This document shows, piece by piece, positions 32,715 to 35,768 of a DNA stretch of 35,768 bases. The notes below the pieces were generated by a model, which did no database searches, was not told where the DNA came from, and worked only from the letters and a program-made list of their open reading frames with translations. Made by a program: the position numbers and the translations under genes. The stretch's first letter is position 1. The number at the start of each line of letters is the position of its first letter. This DNA is from Synechococcus sp. BS30m-G31 (lineage in GTDB: Bacteria > Cyanobacteriota > Cyanobacteriia > PCC-6307 > Cyanobiaceae): the NCBI GenBank assembly GCA_016777265.1, contig JADHRU010000003.1, positions 1 through 35,768 of the forward strand, written 5' to 3'.

Positions 32715-34250
32715 TCAGATTCCCAACTCCTTCAGCAAACGCGTCTGAGCCTGGCCACCCAAGATGGCGTGGGCCGCCATCGCTCCACTTGCCGCAACGG
32801 GTGGAATGCCAATTCCAGGAAATGTGCTGGCCCCACAAAGCCAGAGATTCTCGAGCGGAGTGGTCACCCCAGGGAACAAGCCCTTCGCAGCCGAAAGAGC
32901 AGGTCCATAGCTGCCTTGGCTCACGTTCAAGAAATGGCTATGGGTTAGGGGCGTGCCCTCCATCACCAGATCACATCGGTTACGAATATCTGGGATGCTG
33001 CGCTCTAAAACCCGCCAGAAAACCTCGCAACGCTCCCGCTTGAACGCGTCATAGGCCTGCGTCCCACGCGCGTGCTCGCGCCACAGCGTCCAAGGCTCAC
33101 TCGCTGGGGTATAGCCATGCAAGACATGGCGACCGGCAGGAGCCATCGAGGCGTCCAGGACGGAAGGAACCGACAACACCACCACATTGCGCTCGGCAGC
33201 AATTCCCCGTTCCCAGTCGTTGACCCACACCGTGTGAATGGGCAAGGGATCCAGACCGCTGGCATCAAAGCCCAAATGAAGGTGCAAAAAGCTGTTGCAA
33301 CGTGGGGTCTCTGCCCGTTGACGCTGCCAGGCCTTGGCAGCGTCAACAGGAAGCATCGCCAGGGTGCTCCAAATGTCGGCGTTACTCACAACGCGCTGCG
33401 CAGAAATCGTCTCCCCGTTCTGCAACTCGACGCCTACAACGCGATCACCATCCAGCAGCAGAGATCGCACGGTGACCCCTGTACGCAGGCTGCCGCCATG
33501 GGCCTCAAGTCCCTTGACCAGGGCATCCACCACCGCAGCACTGCCACCAAGGGGATAGTCGAGATGAGCCTCAGGCTGAAACCACTCCCCAAACAATGTG
33601 GCCATCGCAGCAGCGTTGGTATCGCCCATCGGCATCCCGCTGATCAGGAAGCAAAGCAAATCCACCCAATGGCGAAGGAACGGATCCTGGAGATGTCGAT
33701 CGACCAGTGGACCAAATGCGCCGGCGAGGTGACGCATCGCCCGGAGGTGGGGCAGTAAACGTCCCCCACGCTGCAACAGCTGAGCCATGCCATCGACACC
33801 CGGCCGCATGGAGAGGAGCGGCAACGCATCGGCCGCCGCGGCAATCGGACGAAGCACATCCATAAATCGGTGCCACTCCTCCACGGCAGCGGGGCCCCTC
33901 AGCTGACGCACCACCGCCTCAAACCCGTCATCGCCAACGGCAACGCTCAGGTCGCCTTCGGGAAGAAGCACGTCCCAGGTGCGGTAAGGAACAACCTCCA
34001 AGGTCTGACCCAGGGCCCGTAACACTTGAGCCAAAGGGTTATTGCTGGGCCAGCGCCCCAAGCCACTCCACAGGGACGGACCCGATTCGAGGTGATATCC
34101 CTGTCTTTGGAAACCATGGGCCGCTCCGCCAGGCTGGTGATGGGCCTCAAGCACCAGCACATCCCGGCCCGATTTGGCACAGAGCCCCGCGCAGCAGAGC
34201 CCCCCGATACCACTTCCAATTACGAGGACATCAACGCTGTCCTTCACCAA
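32715..34250 (-). CDS. CrtISO-like FAD-dependent oxidoreductase
   Basis: 511 residues of the phytoene desaturase / carotenoid isomerase superfamily. The N-terminal dinucleotide fold is textbook (VDVLVIGSGIGGLCCAGLCA, then VLVLEAHHQPGGAAHGFQRQG), with the CrtISO-like GYHLESGPSLW; the C-terminal FAD segment is NLWLCGASTFPGIGIPPVAASG. Standard CrtISO (CrtH) reads FPGQG before its last block, and this FPGIGIPPV differs, so it is more likely a CrtISO-like paralogue than CrtH itself. The substrate is probably a carotenoid or related lipid, not shown. The start is 44 nt from the divergent rhomboid ATG. Confidence 0.87.
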   Translation of the reverse strand: MVKDSVDVLVIGSGIGGLCCAGLCAKSGRDVLVLEAHHQPGGAAHGFQRQGYHLESGPSLWSGLGRWPSNNPLAQVLRALGQTLEVVPYRTWDVLLPEGDLSVAVGDDGFEAVVRQLRGPAAVEEWHRFMDVLRPIAAAADALPLLSMRPGVDGMAQLLQRGGRLLPHLRAMRHLAGAFGPLVDRHLQDPFLRHWVDLLCFLISGMPMGDTNAAAMATLFGEWFQPEAHLDYPLGGSAAVVDALVKGLEAHGGSLRTGVTVRSLLLDGDRVVGVELQNGETISAQRVVSNADIWSTLAMLPVDAAKAWQRQRAETPRCNSFLHLHLGFDASGLDPLPIHTVWVNDWERGIAAERNVVVLSVPSVLDASMAPAGRHVLHGYTPASEPWTLWREHARGTQAYDAFKRERCEVFWRVLERSIPDIRNRCDLVMEGTPLTHSHFLNVSQGSYGPALSAAKGLFPGVTTPLENLWLCGASTFPGIGIPPVAASGAMAAHAILGGQAQTRLLKELGI

Positions 34251-34872: not shown

Positions 34873-35646
34873 TCAGAGGTATTGATCCAAGAAAGCCAAC
34901 GGGTTAGCCATCGTCTCGGAATAACCCAAGAGGCTTTTGTCGCAGTGTTGATACAACAAGTCATCATCACTGTCTAACAAATAGGTAGCTCCACGTTGGG
35001 TGATGTAGTCATCACAGGGCACATAGGTGCGCCAGTTTCCAAGCACTTCGTTCATATTTCTCAGTCGCCAAGTCGCCAATTCAAACGGTCTCTGGAAGCC
35101 ATCACCGCCGGCACGTCGGAACATCTTTCCGCGAAATGACGGCAGGGGCGAGGCCTGCACCAGATCGTCATCCGCGAACAGCTGCGGCGCCCGACGGTCG
35201 CCCGTGTAACCACGCAACACCTCCTGCAGTGTTCCTGGAGATCCAACACCAGCACACATCAACAAAAAGCCAGGCCAAGGCCCCCCTGGAATTTTCAATC
35301 CAGCCTCAAGCTCCAATTGCTCATGCAGTGTTGGAACAGGGTCAACTTGCAGTTGCTGGCGGGGAAAACGTGTGAACCCACAAAAGCGATCAGCCCCTGC
35401 GGCATCGCCAATCGCGAACACTTGAACACTGACGCCGTGGTCTCGCAAAGAATCCAAACGGGGAACGAGTGCCTGGGCATATTCCAAGGAATCAAAGTCG
35501 CCAAGCTGTCCCATGACAGCCACAAGACGCCTTGAACCTGTTGCCATACCTGGTAGTGGTGCGAGACGACTCAACAATGCTTCTGGTGCTTTCATAACCT
35601 TCTGGACAACAGCGTTGACAACAAATTTTGTTGTCAACGCCAGCAT
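34873..35646 (-). CDS. Peroxiredoxin-like (AhpC/TSA-type) family protein
   Basis: 257 residues if the ATG at 35646 is used. The core resembles the cyanobacterial/plastid peroxiredoxin-like family: RLVAVMGQLGDFDSLEYAQAL, VSVQVFAIGDAAGADRFCGF, TRFPRQQLQVDP and GVGSPGTLQEVLRGYTGD. A Cys in RFCGFTRFP could be redox-active, but the classical PxxxTxxC of peroxiredoxins is not seen, so peroxidase activity is uncertain. A downstream ATG at 35595 (MKAPEALLSRLAP) would leave the perfect palindrome 35612-35640 outside the protein; with the upstream start the palindrome encodes residues ~3-12. I cannot decide between the two. Confidence 0.78.
   Translation of the reverse strand: MLALTTKFVVNAVVQKVMKAPEALLSRLAPLPGMATGSRRLVAVMGQLGDFDSLEYAQALVPRLDSLRDHGVSVQVFAIGDAAGADRFCGFTRFPRQQLQVDPVPTLHEQLELEAGLKIPGGPWPGFLLMCAGVGSPGTLQEVLRGYTGDRRAPQLFADDDLVQASPLPSFRGKMFRRAGGDGFQRPFELATWRLRNMNEVLGNWRTYVPCDDYITQRGATYLLDSDDDLLYQHCDKSLLGYSETMANPLAFLDQYL
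35612..35640. promoter_or_regulatory. Perfect 29-nt palindrome at the peroxiredoxin-like gene start
   Basis: Arms GCGTTGACAACAAA and TTTGTTGTCAACGC around a single T: 14 perfect base pairs, the longest perfect inverted repeat I found in the window. No T-run follows, so it is not a normal terminator. It overlaps the first codons or the leader of the gene ending at 34873, and suits an operator or a translation-blocking hairpin. Confidence 0.7.
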
Positions 35647-35768
35647 GCTCTTTTTATGGCATAACCGTTGAGGTGCACGCCATTGGTCAGCCGCTCGAGT
35701 GCCATCGCAGCGAACTAGTCATCGTCAAACTTTTCAACTGATCAATCAATCAGTCCCTTTGCATCTTT
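35647..35768. other. Non-coding right edge
   Basis: The last 122 nt, upstream of the peroxiredoxin-like gene. I see no credible gene, only short AT-richer sequence that could hold its promoter. Another gene could start just beyond the window. Confidence 0.4.

Follow-up and report, generated by a model that had tools for sequence, protein, structure and literature searches.

The locus considered here raises the question of why a long and perfect inverted repeat should stand at the start of a bacterial gene, and of how such symmetry could have come about. The window (the whole stretch of DNA analysed, 35,768 nucleotides) is contig C81 of a marine Synechococcus-like genome of 1.33 Mb, with an estimated completeness of about 65%. 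Direct checking of the sequence bore out the exact position given in a preliminary description for a 29-nt perfect palindrome, GCGTTGACAACAAA-T-TTTGTTGTCAACGC (14-1-14; 35612–35640). In 202 dinucleotide shuffles of the window, perfect arms (with a loop of 0–10) reached at most 12 bp, so the 14-bp arm observed lies beyond this model of chance, as the description had supposed. The description was also right that the palindrome is no terminator: scans for promoters and terminators recognised nothing at this position. The palindrome is not unique in the clade, as perfect arms of at least 13 bp (terminators included) were present in the sampled DNA of all four genomes examined: six in 419 kb of the window's own genome (G000), four in 348 kb of G027, five in 740 kb of G005 and six in 400 kb of G014. 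The explanation that we favour, with a probability of about 0.55, is that a conserved cis-element of one gene carried an imperfect dyad that became perfect, partly by template-switch mutation.

The gene concerned (34873–35595, minus strand) encodes an AhpC-TSA_2 (PF13911) protein of 240 aa, counted from the inferred start at 35595 and assigned by domain match and ortholog alignment. Among named relatives in the collection searched, Synechococcus sp. AG-683-C23 is the nearest, with 95% identity for this protein. The conserved GQLGDFDS segment has no cysteine, and an alignment of five sequences has a single invariant one (LLMCAG); peroxidase activity is therefore not to be taken for granted. Sequence matching to solved structures gave no convincing hit, a search for viral homologs found none, and no tRNA or integration site was found near the palindrome locus.

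The reading frame is open from an ATG at 35646, across the palindrome, into the AhpC-TSA_2 sequence, and the doubt previously expressed as to the real start codon (35646 or 35595) was justified; the comparison of relatives favours 35595. Changes in third codon positions account for only 5 of 20 in the 51 nt between the two ATGs, versus 137 of 197 in the gene (Fisher p = 1.3e-4; three comparisons among the four closest genomes: window–G027, G014–G005 and window–G014). Between the window and G014, the extension has diverged by 14%, versus a synonymous divergence of 43% in the gene. In two relatives (loci L015 and L021), length changes break the frame between the ATGs, with the motif of the surrounding block retained. 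The first residues are missing from distant orthologs, whose alignment with the protein starts at about the methionine encoded at 35595. The apparent N-terminal extension of 17 codons (35596–35646, minus strand) thus evolves like non-coding DNA. All four of the closest genomes keep the ATG at 35646 with an open frame, as would be expected if the palindrome were a mere coincidence of coding within a translated N-terminus, but the absence of a codon-position signal, the frame-breaking indels and the alignment of distant orthologs only from about 35595 onwards leave that explanation scarcely credible. The same three lines of evidence make 35595 most likely to be the real start, and the palindrome would therefore belong to non-coding DNA 5' of the gene, 16 nt ahead of the start codon.

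In this flank, a block of the form gTTGACAACAgcccTTtTTGTCtAC..GTTGTC..ATG aligns in ten ortholog loci (L001–L004, L007, L009, L010, L015, L019 and L021). It is recognisable in only these ten of the orthologous loci, the other orthologs in the genus having unrelated upstream sequence. Genus-wide searching and alignment place an older 25-bp dyad core, GTTGACA-N11-TGTCAAC (35614–35638 in the window), at the same place in orthologs. A second TTGTC (35605–35609, minus strand) follows 12 nt after the TTGTC of the dyad, and the TTGTC-N7-TTGTC spacing is kept in several relatives; a further conserved stretch of 5' flank, CTCAACGGTT..CATAAAAAG (35647–35673, minus strand), is common to the four closest genomes and is a candidate promoter region. 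Watson-Crick pairs in the arms could be counted in nine of the ten loci, those with a clear register (for L021, one base of a C run was removed), and number 14 in the window, 13 in G027, 11 in G005, 10 in G014 and 9, 9, 7, 6 and 6 in the others; only the window and its sister G027 have near-perfect arms. In a structure count over eight loci, 79.5% of cells were paired, a level reached in 4 of 500 shuffles. An apparent compensatory change in L015 falls in an ambiguous alignment and was set aside. The alignment of relatives that had been proposed earlier thus reveals the dyad in a degraded form, independent of protein coding, with no codon-position signal and with broken frames. We infer from these alignments that the conserved block acts in cis on one gene, as a promoter, operator or leader element.

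Such an element might act as RNA, through a hairpin in the 5' leader that ends 16 nt before the start codon and modulates translation or mRNA stability. The four closest genomes have a strong predicted stem (-12 to -18 kcal/mol), and two of the arm mismatches of G014, at outer and middle positions, are G-U pairs. G027 and G005, however, have A-C mismatches, the stem is weak or absent in G004, G029, G012 and G015, and fold-energy z-scores are about 0 in most relatives. Double changes in the arms, in the same eight-locus count, are unremarkable and within the range of the shuffles (85 of 500), and the palindrome may even lie outside the transcript, depending on where transcription starts. A search of Rfam gave no match. 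The hairpin suggested earlier as a mask on translation finds no support as a conserved feature, with fold energies near background in most relatives and no combination of compensatory changes with a stable fold; conservation of a hairpin is unlikely, and a leader hairpin is an improbable explanation of the palindrome.

The block might instead be read by a protein, a dimeric regulator binding two GTTGACAA half-sites near the promoter of the AhpC-TSA_2 gene only, in which case the symmetry itself would be selected. The sequence of the half-sites and their 11-bp spacing are retained in several genomes, G027 has one coordinated T:A to C:G change in the arms, and the observed pairing is matched by few shuffles, as given above. 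Each of G027, G005 and G014 nevertheless has arm mismatches, and the dyad is no regulon motif. Allowing at most one mismatch, GTTGACA-N11-TGTCAAC occurs at 12 sites in 34 genus genomes, five of them at the AhpC-TSA_2 ortholog; the only two exact matches genus-wide are both at this ortholog, and two-mismatch counts in eight genomes are close to those of the reversed control. Regulon searches found no second conserved target, whether run with the dyad, with the asymmetric motif or with the TTGTC tandem. The idea of a stress regulon, with the arm repeated near other genes, is thus not borne out, as strong copies occur only at the AhpC-TSA_2 ortholog.

Candidate regulators are also few. TetR and LacI domains were found in none of the 34 genus genomes (19 of which are at least 90% complete, the window's own genome being 65% complete), in searches with positive controls; TetR was found in Synechococcus elongatus, which belongs to the control set, unlike the 34 genus genomes. 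There is one clear GntR protein per well-assembled genome, whether the motif is present or not, and MarR matches are marginal. Published consensus sequences exist for the cyanobacterial LexA box, RGTACNNNDGTWCB, and CRP box, TGTGAN6TCACA (PMC3091678, PMC2633013); compared by eye, the dyad fits neither, and both were rejected. Nothing relevant to the half-site was found in the literature. An operator for a dimeric regulator, as first proposed, therefore fails for TetR and LacI, families absent from the genus, and is possible as a single-gene operator of another family; selected operator symmetry is, on balance, a doubtful explanation.

The way in which the symmetry arose can be followed by hand parsimony on a tree assumed from pairwise distances rather than built, in which G000 and G027 are sisters, G005 and G014 are sisters, and G004 and G008 lie outside. 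On this tree, the stem of the four closest genomes acquired pairs 2:28 and 11:19, and two adjacent changes on the branch leading to the window and G027 perfected pairs 13:17 and 14:16. The substitutions that perfect the arms map to internal branches and those that break them to terminal ones (position 6 in G027 and G005, position 7 in G014 and position 13 in G005); the G at position 6 was probably there in the ancestor, G027 and G005 having lost it. In the comparison with G005, one arm of the palindrome is conserved and the differences cluster in the other, as might be left by a template switch. Against such an event here, the outgroups show only the adjacent positions 13 and 14 to be clearly derived on the window/G027 branch, and, once a palindrome has been chosen for being perfect, any difference from it in a relative will resemble a perfecting step.

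Template switching has been described as a route by which inverted repeats become perfect (PMC8794818), and its signature was sought across the clade as clusters of at least two changes that create a 10-mer reverse-complementary to an unchanged neighbour. Reversed and complemented words served as controls, and five settings of word length and number of changes were tried. Between G005 and G014 (374 kb, without the window's genome), there were 18 cases, versus 4 reversed and 5 complemented (K=10, at least two changes), and this excess was clear at 10 and 11 bases and gone at 12 (1 versus 1 and 0). G000 and G027 gave 4 cases versus 0 and 0. Clusters explained by the reverse complement thus exceed both controls clade-wide, although pooled totals are not independent, because the six genome pairs share lineages, and selection for hairpins could partly account for the excess. 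Non-terminator perfect arms of at least 12 bp occur at 1.91 per 100 kb sampled in the window's own genome, 1.15 in G027, 0.54 in G005 and 1.25 in G014, small counts that do not establish differences between lineages. An apparent scarcity of long palindromes in G005, suggested by a 400-kb sample with no arm longer than 12 bp, was discarded, as a longer sample did contain them.

In several palindromes of the clade, one arm is conserved and a cluster of changes has altered the other. A second perfect palindrome in the window (33317–33347; 13-bp arms, 5-nt loop) lies in a crtISO-like coding sequence. One of its arms is kept in G027 and G005 and the other carries three clustered changes, a pattern clearer than that at 35612–35640. 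Two of its three clustered differences from G027 alter residues (Pro-Val-Asp versus Pro-Asp-His). L165:1207–1230 of G027, compared with the window, likewise has a cluster of changes in a single arm, with the opposite arm conserved. Perfect hairpins with arms of 18–19 bp occur at L161:2468–2508 and L156:3964–4007 in G027 and at L191:4832–4874 in G000. A long open frame spans the centre of the L161 hairpin; G027 is apparently a single-cell assembly, and its very long hairpins may be amplification artefacts.

The clade-wide signature and the two adjacent perfecting changes support, short of site-specific proof, the view that the perfection of the palindrome comes partly from template switching. 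The conserved one-gene cis-element would have held the imperfect dyad GTTGACA-N11-TGTCAAC, the symmetry of which seems to have grown stepwise, first through 2:28 and 11:19 and then through 13:17 and 14:16; at least this last step would have been a template switch that copied one arm from the other. The perfect symmetry would then be mainly a by-product, and the underlying block the selected feature. A more ambitious proposal, a long shot in our judgement, is that the dyad is a gene-specific operator or leader element, conserved in marine Synechococcus and recognised by a putative undescribed regulator, and that its symmetry is repeatedly repaired by template switching; if so, mutation would help to maintain a regulatory site. 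Arm copying is frequent enough in this clade for its cases to be counted, and until a mutational route has been excluded, the length and perfection of a palindrome say little for a regulator; perfect symmetry, for its part, need not mean a switch. The analysis also settles which start codon is the likely one in a conserved cyanobacterial gene, and points to a candidate undescribed cis-element at that gene.

The palindrome resembles several known systems in part. Like the LexA and CRP boxes of cyanobacteria, it is a palindromic site upstream of a gene, but its half-site sequences and spacing differ from theirs (PMC3091678, PMC2633013). With the dyad operators of dimeric regulators in general, it shares inverted half-sites, a fixed spacing and a position near a start codon; unlike them, it stands at one locus, in a genus without TetR and LacI, and its perfect symmetry is not kept. 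The two papers cited here on template-switch mutation concern RNA genes and yeast coding sequence (PMC8794818, PMC8604942). The quasi-palindrome correction described there has the same form as that proposed here, in that clustered changes in one arm yield the exact reverse complement of a conserved neighbouring arm; the present case differs in that it is drawn from a comparison of four marine Synechococcus genomes, with only one two-base step clearly polarised for this palindrome.
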